Of a stretch of DNA of 56,756 nucleotides, positions 8,659-56,285 are shown piece by piece (the first letter of the stretch is position 1; each line of letters begins with the position of its first letter). The stretch covers positions 1 to 56,756 of the forward strand of contig CACWGK010000005.1 in the NCBI GenBank assembly GCA_902760415.1, in the 5' to 3' direction. A program made the translations under genes and the position numbers. The notes under the pieces are model-generated. The model was given only the letters and a program-made list of their open reading frames with translations, made no database searches and was not told where the DNA came from. The DNA comes from an uncultured Lachnospiraceae bacterium (GTDB lineage: Bacteria; Bacillota; Clostridia; Lachnospirales; Lachnospiraceae).

Positions 8659-9249
8659 ATGAAGATTCTTGCGCTGGCAGATGTTGAATCTAGATATCTG
8701 TGGGATTTTTTTGAGAAAACTAAATTAGATGGTATAGACCTTATTCTTTCAGCTGGCGATCTGGCTCCTCAGTATCTGGAGTTTCTAGCTACTTATTCGA
8801 AGGTTCCGATACTTTATGTTCATGGTAATCATGATGGCTGTTACAATGATACTCCTCCAGGAGGTTGTATCTGTGTTGATGGTGATATATATGAGTATCA
8901 GGGCCTAAGAATTATGGGACTGGGCGGTAGTATGTGTTATAATTATAGTGGTTTTCAGTATACGGACCGTCAGATGACTCAGAGATATCTAAAGATGAAA
9001 CCTAAGATATGGAGAAAGAAGGGAGTAGATATACTTCTTACTCATAGTCCTGCGAAGGGATTCCATGATGGCTCAGATATGCCACATATGGGTTTCACTT
9101 GTTTTAATACTATACTTCAAAAGTATGAGCCAAAGCTTTTTGTTCATGGTCATGTTCATATGACCTACGGACGTGACTTTAAGCGTGAGGCTATGTATAA
9201 TAATACCAGAGTAATAAATGCATTTGAGAGATATATTATCGAAATATAA
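8659..9249 (+). CDS. Small calcineurin-like metallophosphoesterase
   Basis: A 196-residue metallophosphoesterase. The dinuclear-metal motifs appear in order: AD-V-E near residue 8 (where the textbook motif is D-x-H), SAGDLAP (~30), VHGNHD (~55), LLTHSPAKG (~120) and FVHGHVHM (~158). The Glu in place of His in the first motif is, as far as I recall, common in this small clostridial subgroup. It is almost fused to the preceding BMP-domain gene (4-base gap), so the two are likely co-translated and may share a substrate, perhaps a nucleotide or nucleoside. The substrate is not predictable from sequence. Confidence 0.85.
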   Translation: MKILALADVESRYLWDFFEKTKLDGIDLILSAGDLAPQYLEFLATYSKVPILYVHGNHDGCYNDTPPGGCICVDGDIYEYQGLRIMGLGGSMCYNYSGFQYTDRQMTQRYLKMKPKIWRKKGVDILLTHSPAKGFHDGSDMPHMGFTCFNTILQKYEPKLFVHGHVHMTYGRDFKREAMYNNTRVINAFERYIIEI

Positions 9250-13967: not shown

Positions 13968-13996
13968 TTGACATAACTGTAACAATAGTGTAATGT
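13968..13996 (+). promoter_or_regulatory. Sigma-A-type promoter of the FecR-cyclase operon
   Basis: TTGACA (13968-13973), a 17-base spacer, then TAATGT (13991-13996). The FecR-domain gene starts 50 bases downstream. The -35 is consensus and the -10 matches four of six positions. Confidence 0.75.
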
Positions 13997-14045: not shown

Positions 14046-14951
14046 ATGAATAAGAAGAAGGTTGTAATAGCAATATCTGGAATCATTCTAGTTGCTATTG
14101 TTGTAGCATTAGTTCTATTCCTTACGGTCTTTAAGAAAGATGCATACCGTATCTTGAAAGTGTTTGAATATTCCGGTAAAGGAAATATCACAAGAAAAGA
14201 TATAGGCGATATAGAGCCTTATAGCAATATGGTACTTGAGTCAGGAGATACTGTATCACTCGATGAGGGTGCGATGGTACTTCTTGCTGATGAAGATAAG
14301 TACATTCACTTAGAAGAAGGCACCGAGCTTGTTTTAAATGCAACTGGAAAAAGTGATTCCAGCAAGACAACTATAGAACTAAAAAGCGGTGCTATCACAA
14401 ATGACATTCAGAATAAACTTTCTGAAGATTCTTATTACGAGGTTAATACCCCGAATTCAACAATGTCCGTTCGTGGCACAATTTTCCGTGTTGAAGTTTA
14501 TGAAGAAAATGGAATAAAGTACACCAGAGTTTCTGTATTTGAAGGTAAGGTTGCTTCACGTCTCATTTATAAGAATGGAGATGTGGCTGATAAGGAAGTA
14601 ACTATCGAAAAAGGCAAGGAAGTTCTTATCTATGAGGATGATACTACAGTAGATTACGTGTCTCCTCCTAAGGATATAGATTATTCAGACCTTCCTGATT
14701 CTGTAAAGGAACTTCTTGAAAAAGCCATAGAGGATGGCCGTGATCTTGATATCACTAAGGAAGAGCTTGAGAAGTACTTAAGCAGCGTAGTAACAGTAAC
14801 ATTTACTTACAATGGAAAAGTATTTGGTACTCAGACTGTTACAAGAGGAGATAAGGCTACAGAACCAACACTTGCTCCAGCTGCTACGGGAAGCTGGAAT
14901 TGGGATTTCTCTAAACCTGTTAATTCAGATACAACGATAGAGTGGAAGTAA
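14046..14951 (+). CDS. Membrane-anchored FecR-domain protein with InlB-type B repeat
   Basis: A 301-residue protein: one N-terminal membrane span (residues ~5-28) followed by an extracytoplasmic FecR domain (~60-190), recognised from the IEPYSNMVLESGDTVSLDEGA start, the LVLNATG strand, and the diagnostic VNTPNSTMSVRGTIFRVEV and VSVFEGKV segments. A short helical linker (~215-245) leads to a C-terminal Listeria/InlB-type B repeat (VTFTYNGKVFGTQTV, ending DTTIEWK). There is no sigma factor, TonB receptor or anti-sigma domain, so this is not a classic FecIR system. It is first in an apparent operon with a secreted repeat protein (13-base gap) and a CHASE2 cyclase, suggesting an outside-facing sensing or scaffold role. 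That role is inference. Confidence 0.82.
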   Translation: MNKKKVVIAISGIILVAIVVALVLFLTVFKKDAYRILKVFEYSGKGNITRKDIGDIEPYSNMVLESGDTVSLDEGAMVLLADEDKYIHLEEGTELVLNATGKSDSSKTTIELKSGAITNDIQNKLSEDSYYEVNTPNSTMSVRGTIFRVEVYEENGIKYTRVSVFEGKVASRLIYKNGDVADKEVTIEKGKEVLIYEDDTTVDYVSPPKDIDYSDLPDSVKELLEKAIEDGRDLDITKEELEKYLSSVVTVTFTYNGKVFGTQTVTRGDKATEPTLAPAATGSWNWDFSKPVNSDTTIEWK

Positions 14952-14964
14952 GGAGGACGTGAAT

Positions 14965-17900
14965 ATGAAGATTAGTAATACAAAAAAATCCCATAGAATT
15001 ATAAGCGTTCTGCTTGCTTTTGCTATGGTGATAGGTGGAATAGTAAGCGAGAAGAGTTCGTTTGTAGTATTTGCCGCTGAACCATCTGGCTATGCATTAA
15101 TTAATGATGTGGAAGGTGATTACTCGATAAGTGCTCTAAATCAAGGGGAGACCTGTACTGTCATACTTAGCGGTGGCACGCTTTCTTATGTAAGATTCGT
15201 AGAGCCTGATGCGGATAATCCAGAAGGCGGTTCTGAAACAGTTACAATAAATGATGCATCTGGTAAAAATATTTATTTGGGTCCAGGTGCGACTCTTATC
15301 CAGGACGGAAATAGTAATAATAGTATTACGATTAATGATAATACGGCTAAGCTTTATGTAGAAAGCACTGTTTCTACTAATAATCTGACTATAACTAATA
15401 ATGTCGGTTATTGTGAGATAAATGGAACATGCCAGGGAGATATAATTAATCTCTTTGGTAATCTAGTTATAAATGGATCTCATTCTGGAGAAATTGATAA
15501 TGGTAATAGCTTTGATCTTGAGGATAATAACGCAAGGCTAATAATTAATGGAACTAATTCTGGAACAATTAATAATTATTCTGATATGACGATCGGGACT
15601 TCTGCAAGTGTTACTGTTCCAACAAGTGACATATTTACGAATTATAAAAATCTATCTGTGACTACTTTTAATGGGGTTAGTTATGGAAATAGATTTGTTA
15701 ATCTTGGAAAAATAACTGGTGCAAATATCATACTTGACTCAAATATGGGATATGATGCTTCTGTAGCAGTATATCAAGTGACTTCATCTTTGGATATTAA
15801 GATAAATGATATAGCTGGAATAGGTTCTGTTATTGCTTCTCCTGATGCGATTATTCAGCTCTCTGATATAGTATCAGGATATAGTAAATATGTATCTTTT
15901 AAACTTACTACAGGAAGTGTAACCGATAAAGAAGTTACAATATCAGACGACTTTGAACCCAAGACAGCAAGGTATCTTGCAAAAGATATTCCACATATTA
16001 GTTGGGTTGAGGGGTTACCAAATCCACTTTTTTACGGAGTAGATTATGATGTCAAACCATTTATATCTTGTGATTCTGATGGTCCCATTACAATAACATA
16101 TAGTGATATGTATGGTGATTATCAATCTCCGCCAACAAGCGTTAAACCAACTGAAGTTGGTGAACATAGAGTAGTAGTAAGTGTCCCGGAAACAGATACA
16201 TTTAGAGATGAACAAGACTACGGACTTCATGATTATAACATCATATATCTTACTAGAAGTTATGATTCATCTATGGGAGCAATCCTTGATGCAGATCTGA
16301 TAAGTGATGGTGGATATTATTATACTAATTCACCTGTTAAAGTTGTCGGAAATGAAGGCTTCCAGGTTTCAGTTCATTCTTATGTTACAAATGAAGATTC
16401 TGACTTCGCAGATAGTGTAGTGGTTGATGAGGATGGATATTATAATGGTACATATGCTGCAGTTCGTCGTAAGAGCGATGGCGCCACATCTGATTACTAT
16501 TTTGTGGATTCTGCGGCGATATATATCGATCAGAAAGCTCCAGAAGTAAATCAGTCTTCAGTTGTTGATCAGGATGGTAATACTCCAGATGTAAGGGTTG
16601 AGGATGGAGCTAAGATCCATGCTTCTCGTCTTGAGTTTGATATAAATGATGTCTGGGATAATGATAATCCTATATATTATGCAGCTCTAGATTCTGTTAA
16701 CGTAAATGGTGAAAATGTTGATGTTGACTGGAATACTAATTCAGCACATGTAGTTCTTTCAACTCTAAAAGAGAGAAAAACATACAATATAGTTGCAAAA
16801 GATAAGGTGGGTAATACATCCGAGTTTTCTGTGGCTATAGATAATCTAGATATACCTGAAACATCTATTAGCATGCCTGCATCTTACTATGGTGCAGAGG
16901 TACCTACACCGACTGTAACTACAACATCCGATCAGGATTCTTCTAATTATGAGTTCTTGTATAAGAAGAAGGGAGCTAGTGATGACACATATTCATCAGT
17001 TAAGCCTTCAGCTATTGGAGACTATACAGTAAGGGTAAATATACCTTATTCATATAATTATACTGAATCTATGGCAGAAAGTGATTTCAGTATATCTTAT
17101 CTTCCGGCTCCGGCAGTTCCATTTACGGTTCTTGGAGTAGAGGGTGAAAATGAATACTATAAGAGTGATATTACATTAGCTGCACCAGAAGGTTACTTAA
17201 TATCAAGTTCGACAAGTGATGATTCCTTTGGTTCTTCTATTCAGTACAGCAGTAACCTTAAGTCTGTATATTTAAAGAGAATTGCAGATGGTGCAAGAAC
17301 AAATGCTATAGAAGTTAATTCATTTGGAATAGATAAGGATGCTCCAGTCTTTTCTGAAACTGCCATAGACGCAGCAGGAGAGAGCCATGCATTAGTAGAT
17401 GGAATTGGAGTTGATACTACTAGTCTTAGTTTCAATGTCACAGATGCAAATCTTTCTTCAGTCACTGTAAATGGTGAGTCAGCTCTCATAGCTGGAGGAA
17501 AGTCTGATATAGTTCTTTCAATCGATGCAGGAACAGAGAAAGCATTTAAGGTTATCGCTGAAGATATCGCTGGAAATGTATCAGAGATAAATGTAACTCT
17601 TCGAAATCTACCTACAGAGGAAGAAACTCCTGCTCCAGGTCCTAAGCCTGAACCAACTCTTACTGTATCATTAGATGATCAGTATTATGGCGTGGATTAT
17701 GATCCATCAGCTTCCACTGATTCAAATGGAGCTGAGGGAATAAGTTTCTCATTTAGAAAAGATATTGAAGGAAGTGAATATGAGTCAGTTAAACCTGTTG
17801 AGCCAGGTAACTATGTAGTAAAGGCCACACTTCCAGAAACAGATCATTTCCAGGGGAAAGAAGCAGAGACTAAGTTTTCTATATCATATCTTCCTGCTCC

Positions 17901-18564
17901 ATCAGATGCATATACCGTGTCTGGTACAATAGGCAAGAAGGATTACTATGTAACAGATGCAAAGATTGTCGCTAAGGATGGTTATTCCATATCTAATAGA
18001 CTAAATGGTACATATGCTTCAAGTGTAACCTATACAGATGGAATGACAGCTGTATATCTGAAACGTAATAGCGATAATGCAAAGACTTCAGCTATCACAA
18101 TTAAGGAAGAGATTAAGGTAGATAAGATAAAGCCTGCGCTAAGTACTTTCGGTAAAGATCAGGATGGCAAGACTGTAGATTTATCTTCGGCCTTCTATGC
18201 GGATACAGTAACATTTAGCATCTATGATGAGCATCTAGAGACTGTTTATCTAGATGATGAAGAAGTTGCTATAAAGGATAATACTGCAACTATAACAATA
18301 GATGCTGAGGGCGGTAAGAAGGGCTGTACAGTAAAGGCTTACGATGAGTCCGGAAATGAATACGTACTGAAGATTAATCTTATGGCAACATGGATGTTCA
18401 CTAATATAGTTCCAGTTGGAAATGTGCGGCTTGAAGCGGGAACTGCTTATAAGTTTGGTTCAGGACATTATAAGTTCAATAATGATGCTACACTTTATAA
18501 TGGTAGTAGTGGAAGCTTCTATGTTAAGAAGTCTGGTAAGTATAACGTTGTCGGTGTTGACTAA
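14965..18564 (+). CDS. Secreted multi-repeat surface protein (Ig-like/MBG-type modules)
   Basis: A ~1199-residue exported protein with a signal peptide (basic start, hydrophobic core, cleavage near VFAAE). The first ~330 residues are Asn/Thr/Gly-rich and look like a beta-helix (repeated INGT, INN, LTITNN strands). Three related modules then follow, each opening with a YYGVDYD-like strand and containing SVKPxxxGxYxV and SISYLPAP, then a domain with DKxAP and VxVNGE strands typical of bacterial Ig-like folds. The C-terminus (MATWMFTNIVPVGN, then LEAGTAYKFGSG) carries no LPxTG-like signal or membrane span. I choose ATG 14965, eight bases after AGGAGG; the GTG at 14959 is too close to it. It sits between the FecR protein and the CHASE2 cyclase and may be the ligand or matrix they monitor (inference). 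Confidence 0.78.
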   Translation: MKISNTKKSHRIISVLLAFAMVIGGIVSEKSSFVVFAAEPSGYALINDVEGDYSISALNQGETCTVILSGGTLSYVRFVEPDADNPEGGSETVTINDASGKNIYLGPGATLIQDGNSNNSITINDNTAKLYVESTVSTNNLTITNNVGYCEINGTCQGDIINLFGNLVINGSHSGEIDNGNSFDLEDNNARLIINGTNSGTINNYSDMTIGTSASVTVPTSDIFTNYKNLSVTTFNGVSYGNRFVNLGKITGANIILDSNMGYDASVAVYQVTSSLDIKINDIAGIGSVIASPDAIIQLSDIVSGYSKYVSFKLTTGSVTDKEVTISDDFEPKTARYLAKDIPHISWVEGLPNPLFYGVDYDVKPFISCDSDGPITITYSDMYGDYQSPPTSVKPTEVGEHRVVVSVPETDTFRDEQDYGLHDYNIIYLTRSYDSSMGAILDADLISDGGYYYTNSPVKVVGNEGFQVSVHSYVTNEDSDFADSVVVDEDGYYNGTYAAVRRKSDGATSDYYFVDSAAIYIDQKAPEVNQSSVVDQDGNTPDVRVEDGAKIHASRLEFDINDVWDNDNPIYYAALDSVNVNGENVDVDWNTNSAHVVLSTLKERKTYNIVAKDKVGNTSEFSVAIDNLDIPETSISMPASYYGAEVPTPTVTTTSDQDSSNYEFLYKKKGASDDTYSSVKPSAIGDYTVRVNIPYSYNYTESMAESDFSISYLPAPAVPFTVLGVEGENEYYKSDITLAAPEGYLISSSTSDDSFGSSIQYSSNLKSVYLKRIADGARTNAIEVNSFGIDKDAPVFSETAIDAAGESHALVDGIGVDTTSLSFNVTDANLSSVTVNGESALIAGGKSDIVLSIDAGTEKAFKVIAEDIAGNVSEINVTLRNLPTEEETPAPGPKPEPTLTVSLDDQYYGVDYDPSASTDSNGAEGISFSFRKDIEGSEYESVKPVEPGNYVVKATLPETDHFQGKEAETKFSISYLPAPSDAYTVSGTIGKKDYYVTDAKIVAKDGYSISNRLNGTYASSVTYTDGMTAVYLKRNSDNAKTSAITIKEEIKVDKIKPALSTFGKDQDGKTVDLSSAFYADTVTFSIYDEHLETVYLDDEEVAIKDNTATITIDAEGGKKGCTVKAYDESGNEYVLKINLMATWMFTNIVPVGNVRLEAGTAYKFGSGHYKFNNDATLYNGSSGSFYVKKSGKYNVVGVD

Positions 18565-18601
18565 TTACTTAAGAAACTAGTGATAGCTTGTGGGGAGTTG
18601 T

Positions 18602-20404
18602 ATGGAGTCGAAGAAGAAAAGTAATTTACTCATTATACTTGAGACTTTGCTAGTCGGAGTATTAACATTTATCCTGATATTTTCAAATAGTCTTAATCTG
18701 CTTGATCTTATGGCCCGAGATAAGCTGTATCAGATACCTCGAGGTATTGATAGCAAGATTAAGATTATAGGAATAGATGAAAAGACCATGAATGAGCTCG
18801 GACCGATTCAGACATGGTCGCGTTCAACATATGCAGATCTGCTGAATAAGCTCACTGAAAATGAAGATTCGAAGCCTATGGTTGTAGGCTTCGATATTCA
18901 ATTTTCCGGAAATGTCGATGATGGCGATGCGGCATTTGTAGAAGCAGCTAAGCAAAGTGGAAATGTTGTAATCGTAAATCATCTTATATATGGAAAGAAA
19001 CTTGAACCTAATGAACGGGGACTTCTTGTTGCTCCTGTTACTGACGTTGAAGAGCCATATGATGAGCTGCGAGAAGTTTGCTCTATCGGATTCAGTAATG
19101 TGTCTCAGGATTCAGATGGTACAGTACGAAGGATCATTCCTGTTGAGAAGTTTAACGGAACTAATCAGAAGATGTTCTCCAGTATCCTGTATGAAAAGTA
19201 CTGTGAGTATTCGGGTGTAACGCCTAACACAGTTCCTACTGATAAGTATGGCCGTTCTAATATCAACTATTCTGGTCGCCCGGGCGATTACGAATATATA
19301 TCAATGATCGACATGCTAAATGGCACGATAGACACCAGAGCATTTAAGGACAGTATTGTTCTGGTTGGTGCCTACGCTCCAGGAATGCGGGATAGCTTTA
19401 AGGCTCCTACAAGTGGAAGCCAGCAGATGTACGGAGTTGAGATCCATGCAAATATTCTGCAATCATATATTCAAGGACGTTTCTCTGTGAATGGTAATAG
19501 AGTGGTTTACATAATTCTCGTTGTAATTATAGCCATGCTGCTTCATTTTCTTTTTAGAAAACTGAAACCGTGGCAGTCGCTTATCCTTCTGCTTGTTACT
19601 ATTGGAGCTGAGGTGGGTATACTTATGGCCATCAATAATAGCGGCCACACTTATAGTATTATCTATCTTCCGGTTATATTAGTTCTTTCATATATATACT
19701 CGCTTGCTATGAATTACATATATGAGAAGGCAAGAAAGAAGAAAGTGCTGAACGCATTCAAGAAGTATGTAGCTCCTGAGATTATTGATGAAATATCAAA
19801 GAGCGGTGATTTCCAGATAAAGCTTGGTGGTGAGAATCGTGATATAGCAGTTCTCTTCGTGGATATACGAGGATTTACAACTATGTCAGAGGTTCTTGAG
19901 CCAGAACAGGTTGTAGAGATATTAAATGAGTACTTATCGCTAACAACCAAGTCGATATTCGATAATTCTGGAACTCTTGATAAGTTTGTAGGGGATGCAA
20001 CGATGGCAGTCTTTAATTCTCCATTTGATCTTCCGGATTATGAGTTTAAAGCAGTGTGTGCTGCTATGGATATCGTAAATGGAGGAAAAGCTCTTGAGAA
20101 GACGCTTATGGAGAAGTACGGTAGGACAGTAGGCTTCGGTGTTGGTGTTAACGTCGGCCCAGCTGTCGTAGGAAATATTGGCTGTGAGTTTAGAATGGAC
20201 TTTACAGCAATTGGTGATACAGTTAATACAGCAGCCAGACTCGAGGCAAATGCAAAGAAGGGTCAGGTTCTTATAAGTGATGCATTATATGAGCGAGTTA
20301 AGGATAGAGTTGAAGTGGCTGAGATAGGAGAGATTCCACTTAAAGGAAAGAGTAAAGGTGTATTTGTATATGAGGTAACGGAGGTGCATAGAGAGAATGC
20401 TTAG
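18602..20404 (+). CDS. CHASE2-domain class III adenylate/guanylate cyclase
   Basis: About 600 residues. One N-terminal span (~8-30), an extracytoplasmic CHASE2 domain (~35-300, with IKIIGIDEKTMNELGP, PMVVGFDIQFSG and the later KDSIVLVGAYAPGMRDSF), three closely spaced spans (~300-375), then a cytoplasmic class III cyclase domain (~410-595). The metal-binding aspartates are D421 (VDIRGFT) and D465 (VGDATMAVF). The Lys in LDKFVGDA and Asp in FTAIGDTVNTAARLE are the adenine-selecting pair, and Asn/Arg of NTAARLE are the transition-state residues, so an active adenylate cyclase is expected. ATG 18602 follows GGGGAG; an in-frame GTG at 18590 is less likely. The 3' end overlaps the next gene by 8 bases. 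Class III cyclases are uncommon in Clostridia. The signal sensed by CHASE2 is unknown. Confidence 0.9.
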   Translation: MESKKKSNLLIILETLLVGVLTFILIFSNSLNLLDLMARDKLYQIPRGIDSKIKIIGIDEKTMNELGPIQTWSRSTYADLLNKLTENEDSKPMVVGFDIQFSGNVDDGDAAFVEAAKQSGNVVIVNHLIYGKKLEPNERGLLVAPVTDVEEPYDELREVCSIGFSNVSQDSDGTVRRIIPVEKFNGTNQKMFSSILYEKYCEYSGVTPNTVPTDKYGRSNINYSGRPGDYEYISMIDMLNGTIDTRAFKDSIVLVGAYAPGMRDSFKAPTSGSQQMYGVEIHANILQSYIQGRFSVNGNRVVYIILVVIIAMLLHFLFRKLKPWQSLILLLVTIGAEVGILMAINNSGHTYSIIYLPVILVLSYIYSLAMNYIYEKARKKKVLNAFKKYVAPEIIDEISKSGDFQIKLGGENRDIAVLFVDIRGFTTMSEVLEPEQVVEILNEYLSLTTKSIFDNSGTLDKFVGDATMAVFNSPFDLPDYEFKAVCAAMDIVNGGKALEKTLMEKYGRTVGFGVGVNVGPAVVGNIGCEFRMDFTAIGDTVNTAARLEANAKKGQVLISDALYERVKDRVEVAEIGEIPLKGKSKGVFVYEVTEVHRENA

Positions 20405-21185
20405 ATTCTTTGGACGTGGCTCAGGTTTCTCTGATGAGCATAATGGAGCGTATTTTACAGTTGGCAGTCAGCTTATACTAGTTGACTGCCCGCTTGTTAC
20501 ATTTAAGAGACTTAAAAATGATGGACTTGAATATTATTATAATAAAGCAAATCAGGTTGATATAATTCCGGAAGAGAAAACATCAAAGGTTGACATAATT
20601 CCTGATGAGTCTGTAACAGATATTGTTATAGTAATAACTCATACGCATAGTGATCATATCGGAGGACTTGCCCTTACCATTCATTATGCAACATTTATAT
20701 GGAAGAAACATATAACGGTTGTTGCACCTTCAGAAGAGGTTAGAAAAAATCTGGAGTTTGTACTAAGTGAGCTGGACGGTTGTGACAGAGGCACATATTC
20801 TCTGGTTACTGCTGAGTATTATATAGGAGAAGGTGAATCGTGGCTTAGAGCGGCTATCCCAACAACACATGTTCCGGCCCTTGAAGGAAAATGCTTTGGA
20901 TACTGCTTCAATATAGAGTCAAGAGCGGTTGTCTATACAGGCGATACCAATACTCTAGAACCATTTCTTCCTTATATATTAGAAGAAACATCCACGAGAC
21001 ATATATTATATACAGAGTGTTCCGCCTTTGATACAGGGGTTCACATGTTTGTTGAAAAACTACTAGACTATTCTGAGATTTTTAGAGATAATGGGATAGA
21101 AGTCTATCTGATGCATCTTGATGATGTAGAGAAGATAGAGGAAAAAATACATGGAACAAAGTTTAATCTTGCGCCGCTGGCGTAA
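20397..21185 (+). CDS. Metallo-beta-lactamase-fold hydrolase, candidate cyclic-nucleotide phosphodiesterase
   Basis: A 262-residue MBL-fold protein. The metal motif H82-T-H84-S-D86-H87 is present in ITHTHSDHIGGL, with later ligands TTHVPALEG (His ~160), VVYTGDTNT (Asp ~183) and a C-terminal LMHLDD (His). The frame starts inside the cyclase gene (ATG 20397, cyclase stop 20402-20404), so the two are translationally coupled. RNase Z, arylsulfatase-like and class II cyclic-nucleotide phosphodiesterases share this fold and HxHxDH motif. The coupling to a cyclase makes a turnover role for cAMP/cGMP attractive, but the sequence alone does not prove it. A local duplication (VDIIPEEK, VDIIPDES) lies just before the metal motif. 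Confidence 0.82.
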   Translation: MLRFFGRGSGFSDEHNGAYFTVGSQLILVDCPLVTFKRLKNDGLEYYYNKANQVDIIPEEKTSKVDIIPDESVTDIVIVITHTHSDHIGGLALTIHYATFIWKKHITVVAPSEEVRKNLEFVLSELDGCDRGTYSLVTAEYYIGEGESWLRAAIPTTHVPALEGKCFGYCFNIESRAVVYTGDTNTLEPFLPYILEETSTRHILYTECSAFDTGVHMFVEKLLDYSEIFRDNGIEVYLMHLDDVEKIEEKIHGTKFNLAPLA

Positions 21186-21187
21186 GA

Positions 21188-21226
21188 ATGAGTCACCTTT
21201 TACGTCCGACGTAACTGCTGACTCAT
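21188..21226 (+). repeat. Third copy of the nested hairpin repeat
   Basis: Outer arms TGAGTCA/TGACTCA enclose an inner palindrome ACGTC-C-GACGT, the same plan and size (39 bases) as the tandem pair at 10631-10710. It lies 2 bases after the MBL gene stop and 21 bases before the GGDEF gene start. It has no T-run, so it is not a typical intrinsic terminator. Confidence 0.8.
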
Positions 21227-21247
21227 TTAAGGTCAAGGGGGCCACAT

Positions 21248-22261
21248 ATGAATCTGAATATTAATATAGAAGAAAATACTCTCAAGGAGATTTATGACAT
21301 TAGTTCTAAACTATATACTGAGATGTGCAGCGATAAGGAAAAGGATCATGCTGCAATCTTCGAGTATATGACAGAGCTTGGAAGAACTATGGCTGATGCT
21401 GATAGAGCCAGCTTCTGGAAATGGGATAGACACAAGAAGGAGCTTTGGACCACATCAGCTACCGGCGTAGATAAGATAGCAATTCCTGATAATACCGGAC
21501 TTGTAGGCCGTGCCCTTCGTGAGGGTAAGGTCGTTGTGACAAATGATCCTTATAATGATCCAGATTTTAACAAGGATGTTGACTGGATGACAGGATACAC
21601 AACTAAGTCCGTTCTGGTAATGCCTGTTGCAGATATCAATGGCGAGTTTATCGGTGCATTTCAGATAATTAATAAAAATGGAGATGGCGGCTTCGATGAA
21701 AAGGAAGATGTAAGAAAGCTTTCTATGGCTGCACTTATCTGTGGACTTGCGATGGAGTCAGAAACATTTTATGAAGAATCTCATCATGATAAGCTGACCA
21801 AGCTAAAGAATCGAATGGGATTCTACAGTGATTTTTCTCGTAAGTATAACAAGGCATTAGATGAAGGAAAAAATATCAGCCTCTTTATATCAGATATAGA
21901 TAAGTTTAAGAGGGTAAATGATACATATGGCCACAATGCTGGTGATGATGTACTCTCAACAGTTGCTTCCATAATGGAAAGTAGTTGCGGTGAAAATGAA
22001 GCAGTTTACAGATGGGGCGGAGAAGAGTTTGTGATGATGATTATCGGAGCAACTCTAGAAGATAGCGTAGAAAAGGCTGAATCCCTTCGTAAGAAGATAA
22101 TGAATACTTCTATTGAAGCGGATGGAAACACCCTTAAGGTAACAATGAGTTTTGGATGCAGACAGTTCGATCAGAATCTATCTATAGAAGAAAATATCAG
22201 CAAGGCTGATGAACATCTCTATACAGCAAAAGAGAGTGGTCGAAATTGTGTAATATATTAA
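21248..22261 (+). CDS. GAF-GGDEF diguanylate cyclase
   Basis: A 337-residue soluble protein. Residues ~25-170 form a GAF sensor domain (DRASFWKWD, NTGLVGRALREGKVVVTNDPYNDP, GAFQIINK). Residues ~185-337 form a GGDEF domain with DKLTKLKNRMGF, FISDIDKFKRVNDTYGHNAGDD, the active-site GGEEF (257-261) and the ADEHLYTAKESGRN terminus. All catalytic residues are intact, so it should make c-di-GMP from GTP. The RxxD product-inhibition site usually five residues before GGEEF is absent. There is no membrane span; the GAF domain would sense a cytosolic ligand. It follows the cyclase-MBL pair after a hairpin repeat and ends in a strong terminator. Confidence 0.93.
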   Translation: MNLNINIEENTLKEIYDISSKLYTEMCSDKEKDHAAIFEYMTELGRTMADADRASFWKWDRHKKELWTTSATGVDKIAIPDNTGLVGRALREGKVVVTNDPYNDPDFNKDVDWMTGYTTKSVLVMPVADINGEFIGAFQIINKNGDGGFDEKEDVRKLSMAALICGLAMESETFYEESHHDKLTKLKNRMGFYSDFSRKYNKALDEGKNISLFISDIDKFKRVNDTYGHNAGDDVLSTVASIMESSCGENEAVYRWGGEEFVMMIIGATLEDSVEKAESLRKKIMNTSIEADGNTLKVTMSFGCRQFDQNLSIEENISKADEHLYTAKESGRNCVIY

Positions 22262-22270
22262 AATGATGCT

Positions 22271-22308
22271 ATGAGTCATCGGCTGAAAAGCTGGTGACTC
22301 ATTTTGTT
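22271..22308 (+). terminator. Intrinsic terminator after the GGDEF gene
   Basis: Arms ATGAGTCATC-GGCT and AGC-TGGTGACTCAT close on a GAAA tetraloop and are followed by TTTTGTT. It ends the upstream transcription unit 12 bases before the S10 promoter. Confidence 0.85.
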
Positions 22309-46340: not shown

Positions 46341-46678
46341 CTGCTAAAAAAAAGAGAAATAAAGAGACTTCAACAAAATATGGCGTTCAGTAGACTATTA
46401 TTTAAATATATGTTGTGGTATACATAATGTTATAAAATACATAAAAGAACAACACTTCTTTTGGTAAAAATGCACAAACGAGTTGTGCAACATAACGAAA
46501 ACATTTAGTTCACAGTGTTTTCACTTGAATTATGTAAATTGCGTTGCTAAACTGAATAAAATACCTAGTGGGATTGGGCGAGCTATGCCCTTAAACACTA
46601 GATATTTGAGTAATACATCTTATCAAAATCATCGGGGAAATGAAGGAGAGAGCGTTTCCTCAGAGGGGAGAAAGATCT
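46341..46678 (+). promoter_or_regulatory. Long structured 5' region of the large adhesin gene
   Basis: About 340 AT-rich bases with no convincing gene. Hairpins: TGCACAA/TTGTGCA (46471-46489); GAAAACA/TGTTTTC (46497-46522); and a nested stem CTAGTG/CACTAG with inner GGGC/GCCC separated by symmetric 5-base internal loops (46565-46601). Nearer the start, GGGGAAA may pair with TTTCCTC around a GGAGAG, close to the ribosome binding site. The nested stem has the look of a ligand- or protein-binding leader, but it matches no class I know. Confidence 0.5.
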
Positions 46679-49600
46679 ATGAAAATGAAAAACAAGATTT
46701 CTAGAAGGGTGTGGGCATTTTTACTTGTATTTGTTATGCTGGTTTCGTTGTTGCCTAGTAATCTTAAAGCTGTACAAGCTGAAGAAATTTCAAGTTACCC
46801 AGTAACAGTAAAGTTTTTTGATTATGACGGTACTACACCAGCGACAGATTATCCAAGTAGCGGACAGTATTATATCTTAGCTACTCTAACTTGGAAAAAT
46901 GATTCAGCAGATCTAGTTCATGTTGCAGGTGATGTTGCTGGTTATGGATTTGTAACGTTGAATAATGGATTTACATCCGCGGAAGCAACTTACAATATTG
47001 ATCATTTTTTTGTAAAAGATGAATCAACACAGATGTACGAATCAGTTACCAGAACACCTATGGCTTATGATAATAGTCTATATAATATCTCGACTCGAAT
47101 TTATAAAGCAAATGGTGGTGCGCCTGGTAATTATGATAATGGTACAGCATATAATTATTTGGCAAATGGGGATGATATAGTTGATGGATTTGCTTTCGTA
47201 ACAAATGATGGCTCAACTATTACGGCTAAGAAAGATTATACGCATAATTTGGTTATAAGATTTACTGCGGATAGTGATGTATCATTTAGTGAATCTGATA
47301 ATCTGTTTTTGTTGGTTGATATAGATCATCATAGTAGTGGACATACATATTATGTTCAAAATCTTGCGAATTCTTCGATAACAAAAAATAATCCGTTGGA
47401 TATTCGTATCACTGAATGGAAAGATCAAAATGGTACAGTTCTGTCAAATGAAAAGTATACGGGTAATGAACGTGATTTATCAGTAAAGCTTATAAAAACT
47501 TCTTCATCTAATCCAAATTTTACAGAATTGGTGAACGGTAGCTCTAGAACTATTTTAAAGGAAAATGATATTATAAAAGCTAATAAGATTCACTATGTCG
47601 GATTAGATAGTAATTTAAAGACTACTGATGATTCTAATAAGACGACAACAGAATATGATGTTATTAACTTTAATAAGATTATTGATGAGAACTACGACAA
47701 ATATACATTTCTTGATGTACTGGGTGCAGCAGTTAACTATGGACTGGTAGCAGATAGTATCACTCAGGAAAATCATAGTGAAACCAATCTTGTAACTAAT
47801 ACATTGGCTGGAAGTAATGATGGAGTTGAACCAGATCTCTCACTGGATAGTGATGGGAATCAGGCTCCTGGTGATTTTTATGTTGGTAATATAACTCCTA
47901 AATTAAAAATAGGTAAAAAGACACCGACTGCTTTAAATATTTATACACCTAGTACTAATTTCGATTCAATTGAAGATGATACAAATGGATATGTTAATAA
48001 GGTAGATACAAGTGCTAGTACCATTAGTACAATGATAAGTAATATGGTATCAAATATATCGACGTATTCAAATCTCATGATTTCTAAGGATAATATGGTT
48101 ACTCCAGTGACTTCTGGTTCAAAATGTGTTATTAACACTTTTGATTATCCGGATGATGCAGTCATTTATGTAGATGCAGATGATTATAGATCATATATTT
48201 CTGGAGATTCAAACTTAATATTAGAAAAAAAGAGAAACCAACTGATTGTATTTAACTTTAAAAACCAGTATCCTTCGACAGATAAATTAGTTATAGGAAA
48301 GACTGTAATAAGAGAACTAAATAATACTGGTGCTGTTGACAGAGAATATACAACAAATACATCTGGTTCTGGAGATTGGAATAATGCCTTAAATCGAACT
48401 GCTGATGAAGCAGCACAGCAAATTGTATGGAATCTTAAAAATGTTAGTAAATGTGAACCTGAAATAGCTGGAGGAATGTTTATTCAGCCAACGGCTGGTA
48501 CTGAATTGACACTTGGTCATACAACATGTGGATGGGGTGTCAGCGCTGGACATATAACTATGGGTAAAGATGGAGAGTTCCATTTTGTTTACAAGGGTGT
48601 AACAAGTTCAACTGCTAAGCCAAAAGGATCTATATCTATTTCAAAATCGCAGGTTGATAATCCAAGCAATGTAATAGATGATGATACATTATTTACATTT
48701 GTTGTAAGCTTTTCTCATAGTAACACTTCGGTTGATCTTTCTGGAATAAAGTATTTGCCATCTACAGCGAATGTTACTAAAGCTACAGATTCGTATACAT
48801 ATACGGTAAAAACTACAAAAGGAGCTGCTAACTCGGTTTCGTTTAGTGGATTACCAGATGGAACAAGTTATTCTGTAGAGGAGATAGTAACTGCTCCTTA
48901 TGTATTTAATAGTTGTACTCCATCAGAAGGTTCGGGAGCAACTGTTGATGCGAATAATAGTAAAAAATATACTGGTACTATAGATACATCTGTGACGGCG
49001 AAAAAAGATATATCTTTCAATTTCGTAAACGATATGAATGGTCCGGATGTTGATATCAGTAAGAAATCTGTTTCAGGTTCTGAAGTTGTTGGCGCTTCTA
49101 TAGAGATTACACGTACAGATGTTAATGATTTCAAGTTTACAGCTGCTAATGTAACATTTGGAGAGGGTGCTACAGATACTAACCAGACTGATCTTGAGGC
49201 AACGGGTGGTTCGTCGAAGATTTCTTTCAAGTCTGGAACAAAAGATACTGTATTACATAATCTTCCGGATGGAACATACAAGATGCATGAAGTGGTTGCA
49301 CCTGATGGATATCTGGTTGCTACTGATATTACATTTACTGTTGAAAATGGTGCTGTTGTAGCTTCAGGTACAAGTGTTAAGGCTGCTGTAACAGATGAAC
49401 AGGGTAATGTAACTAATAATGCTAAAGTTACAATGCTTGATGATGTTGCAGGTGATATTACAATTACAAAGAAACTTGTTGGTGCTAGCTTAAGTGATTT
49501 GGGTGACATCACATTTAAAGTTAAGTATCCTGATCAGTCTGAAAAAACAGTTACGCTTAATAGTACAACTGCTGAAACTTCTGAATGGAAATTAGTAAGT

Positions 49601-52600
49601 GGTTCATATGTACATACAATTAAGAATGTACCGACTGGGAATTATACTATTACCGAAGAGAATGCAGGGGCTAAAGGGAAGTATAGCTTAAAGAGTACAG
49701 TTTCTTTGCCAAGTAATAATACAGTAACAGTAGGTGCTTCAACTACTGGAAATATTACATTTACAAATACATATGATGAATCAGCTTCTCTTAAGGTAAG
49801 TAAAAGCTTTAGAGCAGATAGCGATCCTGTACCTAACGGAGATGCAGATAATAGAAATTATGAATTTACTTTAACGCTTAAAAACTCTGATGGAACGGCG
49901 TATGCAAATAAAGAAATTGGTTTACCGGTTGGTCCTTCTAATACATCAACAACAGATGCACAGGGTAAAGTGTCATTTAAACTTAAAAAGGATCAAAGTG
50001 TAACTATTACAGATATTCCTGTAGGAGTTAAATATACTGTAAGTGAAACTGTAGATAATAATGCTATAAAATACGGTTTTGGTTTTGCTTCTGAAACGCC
50101 TGAAAAGTCGATTGTAAGTGGAACAAATACTGTTGTAATGGAAAATACTTACAGTGAAAAGAAGACTAAGATAGTAGTTGAAAAGGAATGGAAAAATGAT
50201 GACATCAATGGTCGTCCTGCTAGTATATCAGTTCAACTAAAGAAGAATAGTTCAAATGAAGGAGCTGCTGTTACTCTAAATGAAGCAAATAATTGGACGA
50301 AAGAATGGTCTGATTTACCTGTTTATAGCTGTGATTCATCAGGTAAATGGACTGAGAATCAGTACTCTGTTGATGAGACAGCTGTTCCTGATGGATATGT
50401 AAAGACGGTGTCATCTAGTGATATAACAAATGGTAAAAAAATCACTATTACTAATACAAAGAGTGATGAAACGGTTGGTTCTCTTCAGATTACAAAAACA
50501 GTTAATGATGGTGATTCAACTAAGCAGGCTCCTGATGCTGCTGCAAAGTCATTTGAAATAGAAGTTACATTTAAGGATGGAACTACAGCTTATAGTAGCA
50601 AAGATATTAACTTAACAATTGGTTCTACTGCTAAGTCGGTTAAAACTAATGCGGATGGAAAGATTTCATTTGAATTAAAATCTGGTGAAACCGCTTTGTT
50701 AGGAAATATAAAAGACGGAGTTTCATATACTGTAAAGGAATCAACTATATCAACTGAAGATCAGAATCATGGCTATACATATGATAGTACAGCTGTAGGA
50801 AATGGTTATTCAGGCAGTGTGGATGCATCATCTGCTACTCCTTCTTCTGTAACAATAAAGAATACATATAATGAGAAAAAGGTATCTGTTACAGTAAATA
50901 AAGTATGGGATGATGAAAATGACAAGGCAAATGCCAGACCATCAAAGATAAGTGTTCAGTTGAAGAAAAATAATGTTGTTAGTGATACTGCTGAATTAAC
51001 AGCTACTGGCAACTGGACAAAGACATGGGATAATTTGCCAGAGTATACTTATTCTAGTGGTACTTGGACTCAGAATGTTTATACGGTTTCTGAGACTCAA
51101 GTTTCTAGATATAAAGAACCTGTTATCGAACAGCCTTCATATGTTAATACCAGTGCTAGTGGTGTAAAACAGTATACAGGAAATATTGTAAATAAAAAGG
51201 ATGTTGATAAAGGATATATTAAGCTTACTAAGACTATTGAAGGACCTGTAACAGATAATGACTTTGACAACTTAACATTTACAGTTAAGGAAAAGGGTTC
51301 TTCAGAGGCTGGAAAGACATATAAGTTTGGTGATTTTACAACAGTAACATCATCAACGGGTATTAAACGTGAACTTGTTATTGAAGTTGCAGATGTTACC
51401 AAGCAGTATGATGTGATAGAACATCTAACTGATGTTGATGGAACAAATGTTGAAGTTAAATACACTATTGGAACAGGCTCCGAAACAACGGCTGCTGTTT
51501 CGAATAAAGATGCAACAATATCTGGTGTTACTCCAAGTTTATCAAGAGATAATGCAACATCGGTATCAATTAGAAATATCTATACTAGTCAGCCTGTTAG
51601 CACAACTATTACTGCAAATAAGACTCTATCGGGAGAAACTCTTGCAGCAGGAAAGTTTAGCTTTAAATTAACAGAAACTACATCTGGAGCATCTTATACA
51701 GAAACAGTTACAAATGCGGCTAATGGAACAGTAACATTTTCAGATATTACTTATACAAAGGCTGGAGTATATACATATACTGTAGAAGAGGTAGGAAAGA
51801 CTGATACAGATAAGTATGAATATTCTGATAAAGTATATACAGTAACAGTAACTGTTACAAATACAAAAGGAGCTCTTAGTGTATCAAAGGCTTATTCTGA
51901 TGGATCGACATCCGTGAATGCTTTGGATTTTGTTAATACAAAGAAGGGTACTGCTCCTGATACTGGATATATTGATATTACAAAGACAATTAAGGGTGAT
52001 GTTACAGTTGAAGATTTATTAGGCCTTTCATTTACTGTTATTAAGGTTGGAGAAACAACTGGAAAAACATATACTCTAAAAGATGATTTTACAAGAAATG
52101 GAAAATCATTTACGCTAACTAATAAGATAGTGGCTAATGTAGGAGATAAGTACATAGTACAAGAAAACCTTGTGAAACTTAATGGTTTTACTGAATCAGT
52201 TTCTTATGAGATAACTGCTGGAGATGGTAATAAAACAGACGGAAAAGGCACAACAACAGGAGAGCTGAGCGTCGTTAAAGGCAAAACTACAACAGTTGCT
52301 TATGAAAATGATTATACTAAGACGCAAAATGTTTATAAGGTTCATATAAGTAAAATTGATGCTGTAAACAAGAAGGAAATTGCTGGGGCTAAGCTTGAGC
52401 TTTATGCAATTGATGCTAGAGGCAACAAGATTGTAGGTGGTTATGATAAAGAATGGATTTCTGAGGAATCAGTAAAGACATTTGATGACATTACTGCAGG
52501 TGATTATGCTATCAAGGAACTGGTTGCACCTACTGGATATGAATTAGTCGAGACATTATTTAAGTTTAGGGTATCATTTGATGCTTCTGGTAAAGCGAGT

Positions 52601-53557
52601 GTTACTTCTCTTGGAACAGATCTTCCTGGAAACTATGATTCTACAAAGGATTTGATAACGTTCGAAAATGATCCGATCAAAGTAACTGGTAAACTGTCAG
52701 TTCATGTGGTTGAGGAAAAGACAAATCGCGATGTTCCTGATGCTACAGTTCTTGTTGAAGCTCCTGATGGAACACAGAAGACATATAAGACCAATTCAAA
52801 AGGTGAAATCGTTGATGAAAATGGTAAGACACCTATTGATGTTGCTCCAGGAAAGTATAAGATAACTGTTACTCAGGTTCCTGAAGGATATGAGGTTACA
52901 GTTGGTGAAACAGCCGAAATAACAGTTCCAGAGAATGGAGAAGCTAGACATGAAGCAAAGATTCTTCCTAAATCTGGTGGATTAAAAGTAAAGGTTGTTG
53001 AAGAGGGAACTAATAGAGAGGTTCCAAATGCTACTGTTGAGATTGAGGCACCAAGTGGAACAACATTCCCTGATGGATCTACAAAGATTATTGTTACAAC
53101 GGACGAACATGGAAATGTTACAGGTTATAAGGATAAGAGTGGTAAGTTTATTGATCTTACAACTGGCCTTACACCTGGTGATTACAAGATTACAGTAACT
53201 AAGGTTCCTGAAGGATATAAGGTAACTACCGGAAAGACTGAAGTTGTTACAGTTAAGCCAGGTGAGGTTGCTGAACATCTTGCTCTTATCGGAACTGCAG
53301 AGAAGAAAGATGAGCAGACAACCGAGAAGACTACTGAGACAACAACTCAAAAGCCTTCAGATACACCTTCAACAGAGGTTAAGAAGCCTAATACGACTAC
53401 TACACCAAATGCTCCTTCAACACCTCAGAAAGATACAACGGTGGTTAACACGGGAGATAGCACAAATGTAGTACCGATCATAATAGTTATGATCATTTCA
53501 CTTATCGGAATCATCTTCCTTGTTAGTCGTAAGAGAAAGATGCGTTACGAGTACTAA
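46679..53557 (+). CDS. Giant sortase-anchored Cna_B/SpaA-type surface adhesin
   Basis: About 2292 residues. Signal peptide (cleavage near VQAEE); an N-terminal domain (~35-650) whose later part (NYGLVADSITQENHSETNLV, GGMFIQPTAGTELTLG, GWGVSAGH, GEFHFVYKG) is shared with the next gene and resembles choice-of-anchor A domains. Then about ten Ig-like/prealbumin-like modules follow: SpaA-type (VDISKKSVSGSEVVGASIEI; HISKIDAVNKKEIAGAKLEL), Cna_B-type (VVEKEWKNDDINGRPASISV; VTVNKVWDDENDKANARPSK), one FctA/Spy0128 pilin-type module (TITANKTLSGETLAAGKFSF), and two tandem carboxypeptidase-regulatory-like repeats (VVEEKTNRDVPDATV; VVEEGTNREVPNATV). These families form isopeptide bonds. A Thr-rich stalk leads to VVNTGDS, a span and RKRK, a variant cell-wall sorting signal. 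ATG 46679 follows AGGGGAG. No sortase is present nearby. Confidence 0.88.
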   Translation: MKMKNKISRRVWAFLLVFVMLVSLLPSNLKAVQAEEISSYPVTVKFFDYDGTTPATDYPSSGQYYILATLTWKNDSADLVHVAGDVAGYGFVTLNNGFTSAEATYNIDHFFVKDESTQMYESVTRTPMAYDNSLYNISTRIYKANGGAPGNYDNGTAYNYLANGDDIVDGFAFVTNDGSTITAKKDYTHNLVIRFTADSDVSFSESDNLFLLVDIDHHSSGHTYYVQNLANSSITKNNPLDIRITEWKDQNGTVLSNEKYTGNERDLSVKLIKTSSSNPNFTELVNGSSRTILKENDIIKANKIHYVGLDSNLKTTDDSNKTTTEYDVINFNKIIDENYDKYTFLDVLGAAVNYGLVADSITQENHSETNLVTNTLAGSNDGVEPDLSLDSDGNQAPGDFYVGNITPKLKIGKKTPTALNIYTPSTNFDSIEDDTNGYVNKVDTSASTISTMISNMVSNISTYSNLMISKDNMVTPVTSGSKCVINTFDYPDDAVIYVDADDYRSYISGDSNLILEKKRNQLIVFNFKNQYPSTDKLVIGKTVIRELNNTGAVDREYTTNTSGSGDWNNALNRTADEAAQQIVWNLKNVSKCEPEIAGGMFIQPTAGTELTLGHTTCGWGVSAGHITMGKDGEFHFVYKGVTSSTAKPKGSISISKSQVDNPSNVIDDDTLFTFVVSFSHSNTSVDLSGIKYLPSTANVTKATDSYTYTVKTTKGAANSVSFSGLPDGTSYSVEEIVTAPYVFNSCTPSEGSGATVDANNSKKYTGTIDTSVTAKKDISFNFVNDMNGPDVDISKKSVSGSEVVGASIEITRTDVNDFKFTAANVTFGEGATDTNQTDLEATGGSSKISFKSGTKDTVLHNLPDGTYKMHEVVAPDGYLVATDITFTVENGAVVASGTSVKAAVTDEQGNVTNNAKVTMLDDVAGDITITKKLVGASLSDLGDITFKVKYPDQSEKTVTLNSTTAETSEWKLVSGSYVHTIKNVPTGNYTITEENAGAKGKYSLKSTVSLPSNNTVTVGASTTGNITFTNTYDESASLKVSKSFRADSDPVPNGDADNRNYEFTLTLKNSDGTAYANKEIGLPVGPSNTSTTDAQGKVSFKLKKDQSVTITDIPVGVKYTVSETVDNNAIKYGFGFASETPEKSIVSGTNTVVMENTYSEKKTKIVVEKEWKNDDINGRPASISVQLKKNSSNEGAAVTLNEANNWTKEWSDLPVYSCDSSGKWTENQYSVDETAVPDGYVKTVSSSDITNGKKITITNTKSDETVGSLQITKTVNDGDSTKQAPDAAAKSFEIEVTFKDGTTAYSSKDINLTIGSTAKSVKTNADGKISFELKSGETALLGNIKDGVSYTVKESTISTEDQNHGYTYDSTAVGNGYSGSVDASSATPSSVTIKNTYNEKKVSVTVNKVWDDENDKANARPSKISVQLKKNNVVSDTAELTATGNWTKTWDNLPEYTYSSGTWTQNVYTVSETQVSRYKEPVIEQPSYVNTSASGVKQYTGNIVNKKDVDKGYIKLTKTIEGPVTDNDFDNLTFTVKEKGSSEAGKTYKFGDFTTVTSSTGIKRELVIEVADVTKQYDVIEHLTDVDGTNVEVKYTIGTGSETTAAVSNKDATISGVTPSLSRDNATSVSIRNIYTSQPVSTTITANKTLSGETLAAGKFSFKLTETTSGASYTETVTNAANGTVTFSDITYTKAGVYTYTVEEVGKTDTDKYEYSDKVYTVTVTVTNTKGALSVSKAYSDGSTSVNALDFVNTKKGTAPDTGYIDITKTIKGDVTVEDLLGLSFTVIKVGETTGKTYTLKDDFTRNGKSFTLTNKIVANVGDKYIVQENLVKLNGFTESVSYEITAGDGNKTDGKGTTTGELSVVKGKTTTVAYENDYTKTQNVYKVHISKIDAVNKKEIAGAKLELYAIDARGNKIVGGYDKEWISEESVKTFDDITAGDYAIKELVAPTGYELVETLFKFRVSFDASGKASVTSLGTDLPGNYDSTKDLITFENDPIKVTGKLSVHVVEEKTNRDVPDATVLVEAPDGTQKTYKTNSKGEIVDENGKTPIDVAPGKYKITVTQVPEGYEVTVGETAEITVPENGEARHEAKILPKSGGLKVKVVEEGTNREVPNATVEIEAPSGTTFPDGSTKIIVTTDEHGNVTGYKDKSGKFIDLTTGLTPGDYKITVTKVPEGYKVTTGKTEVVTVKPGEVAEHLALIGTAEKKDEQTTEKTTETTTQKPSDTPSTEVKKPNTTTTPNAPSTPQKDTTVVNTGDSTNVVPIIIVMIISLIGIIFLVSRKRKMRYEY

Positions 53558-53568
53558 AATGAATCAAA

Positions 53569-53604
53569 TAGTCGGAGGGACATAAGTCCTTCCGGCTATT
53601 TTTT
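53569..53604 (+). terminator. Intrinsic terminator after the first adhesin
   Basis: ATAGTCGGA-g-GGAC and GTCC-t-TCCGgCTAT around an ATAA loop, then TTTTTTT. Confidence 0.9.
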
Positions 53605-53862
53605 TGCGTCGAAAATACGTCATTTGTGTGTCTTTTCTGTGTATTAAATATCTGTCTTTTGTGGCATTTTCTATTATTTAATGGATGCTTTTTACCTTTT
53701 GTTGTGCAATGTCACGATTCTGTCATTTATTGCAAATAATTGCTTGTATTATAAAGGCTATCTTGTTAGACTAGACCATGTTGGTGCATTCTACGCACCA
53801 TGGGGAAAAGGAAGAATTAAAAGAATCTATATTACACTGTTTTTTTTGAGAGAGGTCTTGTT
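53605..53862 (+). promoter_or_regulatory. Intergenic leader of the second adhesin
   Basis: No gene is supported. A TATAAA (53750-53755) could be a -10, but a -35 at standard distance is weak. In the presumed leader a stem-loop GGTGC/GCACC with outer CCA(TG)/(CA)TGG pairing spans 53776-53803. A run of eight T and GAGAGAGG lead to the start at 53863. Confidence 0.45.
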
Positions 53863-56275: not shown

Positions 56276-56285
56276 GTGGTAAAGG
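56265..56285. other. Composition and coding junction (probable chimera point)
   Basis: Counting by hand, 56041-56100 has 23 G/C of 60 (38%), whereas 56401-56520 has 69 of 120 (57%). Coding sense also switches from plus to minus here, both frames running into each other in antisense. No inverted repeat, target duplication or transposase marks the boundary. Confidence 0.75.

Follow-up and report, generated by a model that had tools for sequence, protein, structure and literature searches.

What does a class III nucleotidyl cyclase with an extracytoplasmic CHASE2 domain do in a bacterium of the Clostridia, and what becomes of the nucleotide that it is predicted to make? The question is raised by a cluster of five genes in a stretch of DNA of 56,756 nucleotides from an uncultured gut bacterium of the Lachnospiraceae (assembly GCA_902760415.1, contig CACWGK010000005.1, positions 1 to 56,756; called the window here), which encode a FecR-domain protein, an exported repeat protein, the cyclase, a protein of the metallo-β-lactamase (MBL) fold and a GAF-GGDEF protein. 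The observed gene order, domain content, conserved catalytic residues, co-occurrence and gene fusions suggest that the five genes probably constitute a relay from the surface to the cytoplasm, in which the cyclase makes a cyclic mononucleotide (cNMP), likely cyclic AMP (cAMP), the MBL protein erases it, the GAF domain reads it and the GGDEF domain makes cyclic di-GMP (c-di-GMP).

In such a relay the CHASE2 domain would sense an outside condition, probably with help from the exported repeat protein and from the FecR protein anchored in the membrane, and sensing would switch the cyclase, whose product is most probably cAMP. Hydrolysis of this nucleotide by the MBL protein would provide baseline and reset, and the neighbouring GAF domain would bind it and tune c-di-GMP synthesis by the GGDEF domain. 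The identity of the nucleotide, the activity of the MBL protein, the ligand of the GAF domain, the direction of regulation and the roles of the FecR and repeat proteins are the parts of this scheme that we infer. The features of the cluster are as follows.

13968-13996, forward strand: possible promoter, an exact TTGACA with a weak -10 element TAATGT at a spacing of 17 (from the sequence).
14046-14951, forward strand: FecR-domain protein of 301 amino acids with a single N-terminal hydrophobic segment (Pfam, hydropathy).
14965-18564, forward strand: exported protein of 1199 amino acids with three repeats of about 240 to 280 residues and a conserved C-terminal region (sequence comparison).
18602-20404, forward strand: CHASE2 class III nucleotidyl cyclase of 600 amino acids, predicted to be an adenylyl cyclase (Pfam, conserved residues).
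20397-21185, forward strand: MBL-fold protein of 262 amino acids, a relative of the cyclic-nucleotide phosphodiesterases Apyc1 and YhfI (Pfam, profile, fold).
21186-21247, forward strand: hairpin in the gap between the MBL and GAF-GGDEF genes, -22.5 kcal/mol, z-score -2.9 (folding).
21248-22261, forward strand: GAF-GGDEF diguanylate cyclase of 337 amino acids (P0005), proposed cNMP receiver (Pfam, fusions elsewhere).
22271-22302, forward strand: terminator-like hairpin that closes the cluster, 14 pairs, z-score -5.6 (folding).

An earlier note on this DNA had placed the first four open reading frames (ORFs) correctly, and its distances hold: 13 bases between the FecR and repeat protein genes, 37 between the repeat protein and cyclase genes, and an overlap of 8 bases between the cyclase and MBL genes. 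It let the unit end at 21185, whereas the GAF-GGDEF gene starts 62 bases past the end of the MBL gene and is itself followed by the terminator-like hairpin.

The cyclase matches the Pfam models CHASE2 at residues 20-308 (155 bits) and Guanylate_cyc at 413-585 (81 bits), and hydropathy places one hydrophobic segment before CHASE2 (6-31) and three after it (294-323, 323-346 and 350-371). Its catalytic domain can be aligned with solved adenylate cyclases, and six positions are invariant among 32 diverse aligned cyclases, confirming the complete catalytic residues that had been claimed: D421 and D465, which we take to be the metal pair, K461 and T535, presumably the base-selecting pair, and N542 and R546, presumably the transition-state pair. 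A Lys/Thr substrate pair is of the type of class IIIb adenylyl cyclases. The predicted product is a cNMP, most probably cAMP. A domain search of the genome found this class III cyclase alone; the first pass of that search misses real matches, as it returned no GAF domain although P0005 clearly carries one, and the same caveat applies to the single counts of FecR and PF00027.

How closely are the putative eraser and reader tied to the cyclase? In a sample of 61 genomes of the genus, the cyclase has an orthologue in 37 (34 nearly whole, 3 partial), the MBL protein occurs in 37 and the GAF-GGDEF protein in 39, including every one of the 37 genomes with the cyclase and of the 37 with the MBL protein (Fisher 1e-14 for co-occurrence, with relatedness of the genomes ignored). 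Among the 31 genomes that are at least 90% complete, 22 encode both cyclase and GAF-GGDEF protein, one the GAF-GGDEF protein alone and eight neither. Cyclase loci number 36, of which 35 were counted, L068 being left out as it holds a cyclase fragment only; at 30 of these 35 the GAF-GGDEF gene adjoins the cyclase gene, 21 times in the same direction, and in two genomes (G024, G053) the MBL/GAF-GGDEF pair is retained on a contig other than that of the cyclase, which extends far both ways. Moreover, 12 of the 39 genomes have the MBL and GAF-GGDEF genes as a single open frame, encoding 573 to 637 amino acids where measured. They are apparently fused in G039 and G055 as well, where the frame is cut by contig ends and open as far as the sequence goes; in G029 each half is on a contig of its own, the MBL half at a contig end. 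Fusion in one chain is the strongest argument that the MBL and GAF-GGDEF proteins share a ligand.

Similar clusters recur outside the genus. At E 1e-60 the cyclase is matched in 61 of 397 genomes of the family; at E 1e-80 it is matched in 17 of 391 genomes drawn from the class, 14 of which are not members of the family, and 16 class-level loci were inspected by eye and kept out of the counts. A scan of named genomes contributed the best 80 of at least 584 loci, which were not assigned to genera, so that some are perhaps of the same genus; they belong mostly to Lachnospiraceae and other Clostridia of rumen and gut, but also to Clostridium aestuarii and three Paenibacillus, and nine of the 80 were left out as the last 300 cyclase residues are identical to those of others. 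Loci not among the 36 of the genus, termed other loci here, thus number 130 (59 + 71), and 76 of them, after de-duplication, are fully flanked by at least 4.5 kb on both sides. At these 76 loci FecR is found 66 times, a receiver 59 times and a hydrolase 60 times; all three partners are present at 49 and at least two of the three at 63. Among 19 random regions of such genomes, scanned as controls with the same profiles and cut-offs, FecR is found in one and receivers or hydrolases in none, while a protein with a cyclic-nucleotide-binding domain (CNBD) and PP2C at 218 bits (cut-off 250) and a GGDEF at 62 bits fell below cut-off; a twentieth region, L242, was left out for a second CHASE2 match at its end. 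The bit cut-offs and the limit of 7.5 kb were chosen by the analyst, and the locus counts are partly circular because the profiles of the GAF-HD, TIM-barrel, second MBL and CNBD families were each seeded with 1 to 5 proteins from the counted loci and the second FecR profile was built from matches in them. Within the genus, 24 of the 35 loci have FecR no farther than 7.5 kb from the cyclase. Of the other 11, nine offer under 3.3 kb of sequence upstream, L047 has its FecR gene at a greater distance than that limit, and the stretch of L045 stops inside a very long repeat protein before FecR is reached. The linkage of FecR and cyclase that the earlier note described is therefore strongly conserved (24 of 35 and 66 of 76 loci versus 1 of 19 controls), and the objection that there is no conserved linkage fails.

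The receiver and hydrolase positions are filled by different proteins. The receiver is a GAF-HD protein at 43 of the 76 loci, a GAF-GGDEF protein at 6, a CNBD-PP2C protein at 6 and a CNBD-DUF2225 protein at 5 (one locus has two), and the hydrolase is a TIM-barrel protein at 45 and an MBL protein at 15. The two hydrolases are mutually exclusive, occurring together at none of the 76 loci (Fisher 1e-7) and none of the 130 (1e-9), again with relatedness ignored. Pfam identifies representatives of the TIM-barrel protein as AP_endonuc_2, of the GAF-HD protein as GAF and HD_5, and of the CNBD proteins as cNMP_binding with SpoIIE or DUF2225. Eight residues of the TIM-barrel protein, presumably metal ligands as in the AP-endonuclease family, are invariant in 65 sequences. 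The phosphate cassette of the CNBD receivers, which we take to be the cAMP cassette, is also invariant (GEL...R-x-A-T in 10, GEM...R-S-A-S in 6). The true CNBD in the receiver position at these loci is the strongest argument that the position belongs to a cNMP reader. Furthermore, TIM-barrel and GAF-HD proteins are fused at L127, L224 and L226, and in a second family FecR, cyclase and a fused MBL-GAF-GGDEF protein with the MBL metal ligands kept stand together at five of seven loci (L266-L270). In Clostridium aestuarii the genes for cyclase, FecR, MBL and GAF-HD are consecutive. One genome, G539, has two clusters, FecR-repeat protein-cyclase with no receiver in view (L262) and three FecR genes followed by cyclase and fused MBL-GAF-GGDEF (L268).

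It could be imagined, and is proposed here tentatively, that these clusters are variants of one cNMP platform of Clostridia, with a fixed input of FecR and CHASE2 cyclase, a reader slot taken by GAF-GGDEF, GAF-HD, CNBD-PP2C or CNBD-DUF2225 and an eraser slot in which an Apyc1-like MBL protein and an AP-endonuclease-like TIM barrel replace each other and never coexist. The TIM barrel would then be an unrecognised class of cNMP phosphodiesterase, and in the MBL-GAF-GGDEF fusion erasing, reading and converting the signal would all fall to one polypeptide. From the slot exchange a reaction can be predicted for the TIM-barrel family, and it points to a way of finding cNMP readers in Bacillota; that the TIM-barrel proteins of the relatives are a new phosphodiesterase class is possible and is the boldest prediction.

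Could the GAF domain of the window bind a cyclic nucleotide? P0005 scores 136 bits against GGDEF and 52 bits against GAF (1.9e-13 for PF01590). The closest PDB sequence relative of its GAF domain is 4mcw, a GAF-HD-GYP protein that we take to be PmGH, followed by CyaB2, PDE10, PDE5 and PDE2. A fold search with a middling model (predicted local distance difference test score, pLDDT, 79.6; predicted template modelling score 0.50) lists diguanylate cyclases, 4mcw, CyaB2 and PDE10. CyaB2 contacts cAMP through R291, T293, I308, D356 and N359 (PMC4411481). When residues are matched by hand on the alignment, the equivalents of R291 and D356 are invariant in 21 GAF-GGDEF sequences, T293 is replaced by Ser, and N359 by Thr as in PDE10 and PDE5. 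Taken together with the altered positions described below, these residues make the domain a credible candidate for a cNMP reader.

The MBL protein matches its Pfam superfamily weakly but over threshold (29.5 bits, cut-off 27), and the metal-site residues HTHxDH, H158, D183 and H240 are invariant in 18 sequences. Its profile reaches six PDB sequences at E 0.01, namely 7fct (MBLBt2), three Apyc1, 1zkp (the ELAC homologue of Bacillus anthracis) and 8yhe, and RNase Z is not among them. A Foldseek search with the predicted structure (pLDDT 88.5) places MBLBt2 at the top, then Apyc1, 1zkp, YhfI and arylsulfatase (all within ranks 3-12); cAMP-bound MBL, RNase Z and PhnP match lower down, and a GMP-bound MBL is also among the matches. 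Apyc1 and YhfI cleave cNMPs, YhfI favouring cAMP and cGMP, and the authors raise the possibility that host Apyc1 takes part in cNMP signalling (PMC9117128). The nearest characterised relatives of the MBL protein thus are cNMP phosphodiesterases, and cNMP hydrolysis is predicted for it by homology.

Several observations weigh against the relay. In the genus, no MBL protein was found in G012 and G037, which retain cyclase and GAF-GGDEF protein, G035 and G038 have the GAF-GGDEF protein but no detected cyclase, and at 9 of the 30 loci where it adjoins the cyclase the GAF-GGDEF gene points the other way, so that co-transcription is not universal. Among the 76 other loci, 17 have no recognised receiver and three (L104, L138, L215) no partner at all, and in the second family two of the seven loci (L262, L263) show no receiver, their genomes holding a fused MBL-GAF-GGDEF copy elsewhere. 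No PilZ match was found in the genome, a result of little weight since the first pass of the search misses real matches. The best GAF relative, 4mcw, is not known to bind a cNMP. The I308 contact of CyaB2 is lost in the GAF-GGDEF proteins, being Ser in 15 and Ala in 6 of the 21 sequences, and the NKFDE motif reads N, K, F/Y, E, D with the last two residues swapped, N and K being invariant and F replaced by Y in 4 of 21. Of 58 GAF-HD proteins from relatives, all have Ala or Gly at the position of R291 and only 3 retain the NKFDE Lys, which makes their ligand less certain. Finally, arylsulfatase, RNase Z and PhnP are among the fold matches of the MBL protein, and no function was found in the literature for its closest structure, MBLBt2.

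The altered I308 and NKFDE positions speak for an alternative in which cyclase and MBL protein make and erase cAMP but the GAF domain reads another ligand. The diguanylate cyclase would then run in parallel, as an output of the same envelope process that is sensed independently. GAF domains bind many different ligands (PMC4411481), and GGDEF genes are common in this genome, where 31 matches, 30 of them over cut-off, make c-di-GMP signalling likely. Against a separate ligand stand the MBL-GAF-GGDEF fusion in two families, the strict co-occurrence and the true CNBD in the receiver position at other loci, and we regard this alternative as unlikely, if the most serious of the three considered.

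A smaller chance is given to the possibility that the MBL and TIM-barrel proteins act on some other phosphodiester or envelope metabolite and that the cAMP relay has no dedicated eraser. The mixed fold matches (RNase Z, PhnP, arylsulfatase, GMP-bound MBL) and the missing function of MBLBt2 would fit such a substrate, but the MBL profile reaches three Apyc1 and no RNase Z, and 60 of 76 loci link a hydrolase to the cyclase, several of them with the hydrolase fused to the receiver. A Pycsar-type anti-phage system is very improbable and was rejected. In its favour, the cyclase domain is hit by Pycsar-cyclase models (7.7e-28), the CNBD part of two receivers from relatives is hit by Pycsar TIR-effector models (5.1e-18, 7.8e-12), and the MBL protein is a relative of Apyc1. 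Against it, the cluster of the window shows neither a PycTM nor a PycTIR effector, PADLOC has no match in the MBL or GAF-GGDEF protein, class III cyclases and CNBDs are common to many other systems, and this cyclase carries a CHASE2 receptor and the Lys/Thr pair of adenylyl cyclases.

What could the proposed relay from surface to cytoplasm sense? The FecR domain of the 14046-14951 protein scores 42 bits in Pfam and is the sole FecR match in the genome search. FecI/FecR-type regulation was dropped, as no extracytoplasmic function sigma gene is seen adjoining the FecR gene. The C-terminal stretch of the protein (14778-14951) is common to the FecR proteins of the genus, which mostly end in ...IEWK, and has no Pfam model in the window protein. 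The large exported repeat protein was correctly recognised earlier: an N-terminal hydrophobic segment is followed by three related units at about 356-632, 641-886 and 907-1139, with pairwise scores of 163, 169 and 308 versus at most 79 in 200 shuffles each. Pfam recognises one stretch only (Glucodextran_B), NCBIfam nothing informative, and an LPXTG motif is absent from the last 75 residues. Most complete orthologous ORFs span 864 to 2440 amino acids; three are short (230 to 346) and one cut ORF exceeds 3200. The repeat protein is present at 32 of 35 loci in the genus versus 19 of the 130 other loci. Of the partners proposed earlier for the cyclase, FecR is conserved and the repeat protein is far less frequent outside the genus; the conserved partners MBL and GAF-GGDEF, adjacent to the cyclase and the proposed output, had been overlooked.

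The promoter at 13968-13996 had been described as consensus. Its -35 element is indeed exact (TTGACA, 13968-13973), but the -10 element is weak, as is an alternative TGTAAT at a spacing of 15; a scan for consensus promoters does not list the site, and its total of 31 promoter-like sites is at chance level (32.6 expected). At the other end, a hairpin at 21186-21230 (ATGAGTCA...TGACTCAT) has arms that recur in the terminator at 22271-22302. Since a stable hairpin stands between them, read-through from the MBL gene into the GAF-GGDEF gene is in question, and the hairpin may act as an attenuator; in a close relative (L033) the gap is about 27 bases, so that this hairpin is absent there. The S10 leader, the sole Rfam match, comes next downstream of the terminator, giving the order rlmI-like, amidase-like (both names assigned by eye), FecR, repeat protein, cyclase, MBL, GAF-GGDEF, S10 operon.

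A CRP/FNR-family receptor, which the earlier note suggested looking for in the genome, has not emerged: the sole PF00027 protein scores 28.9 bits (cut-off 27.5), and this candidate (L069:7081-7677, G000 C102), a CRP/FNR-like regulator, was rejected as a receiver for want of a clear cAMP phosphate cassette by eye. A CNBD-PP2C query gave a single match in the genome at E 0.032. Elsewhere in the window, a calcineurin-like phosphoesterase, conceivably a cNMP phosphodiesterase, is encoded at 8659-9249 beside citrate synthase, about 5 kb upstream of the cluster. Two large proteins of 2305 and 831 amino acids are encoded at 46640-56358, perhaps surface or pilin-like adhesins; the former matches DUF7601 below threshold over its first 787 residues and the latter has SpaA-like prealbumin domains.

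How does the cluster compare with known systems? cAMP signalling in gut Clostridia looks little studied, and a conserved cluster in which the cyclase is paired with a probable eraser and a probable reader offers a testable pathway ending in c-di-GMP for an enzyme of unclear role. No description of such clusters in Clostridia or of an MBL-GAF-GGDEF protein was found in the open-licence literature. The view of the earlier note that the linkage looks new is not supported: clusters of a CHASE2 adenylate cyclase, a FecR protein, a cAMP phosphodiesterase and TPR were reported for Campylobacterota in 2022 (PMC9239204), and FecR also adjoins the cyclase in Paenibacillus. In Campylobacterota too, then, a cAMP phosphodiesterase and an envelope protein with a FecR domain accompany the CHASE2 cyclase, but the available part of that report names no GAF/GGDEF receiver and describes FecR as an outer-membrane protein, whereas the window comes from a Clostridia host and adds an exported repeat protein (PMC9239204). 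Diguanylate cyclases and c-di-GMP phosphodiesterases driven by cAMP or cGMP are in print, Bd1971 among them (PMC8846402, PMC6717892). Lcd1 of Leptospira, a cAMP-activated GAF-GGDEF diguanylate cyclase (PMC8846402, PMC6717892), shares the domain order and the proposed step from cAMP to c-di-GMP; unlike Lcd1, the window gene lies beside an MBL hydrolase gene, fused to it in relatives, next to the cyclase, and cAMP is for it a candidate ligand. In Xanthomonas, XC_0250 and XC_0249 are an adjacent cyclase and cGMP-responsive diguanylate cyclase, a similar pairing of a class III cyclase with a diguanylate cyclase bearing a cNMP reader, but there the reader is a CNBD and the nucleotide cGMP, and CHASE2, FecR and a hydrolase are not mentioned in the available text (PMC3770947). 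The cAMP-activated GAF-HD-GYP protein Tlr0485 of Thermosynechococcus has the architecture of the GAF-HD receivers of other clusters and differs in that the available text mentions no link to a CHASE2/FecR cluster (PMC8846402). Apyc1 and Bacillus subtilis YhfI, class II cNMP phosphodiesterases, share with the MBL protein the fold and the HxHxDH motif (PMC9117128); unlike theirs, the MBL gene is here part of a proposed signalling cluster, into which it is often fused in relatives.

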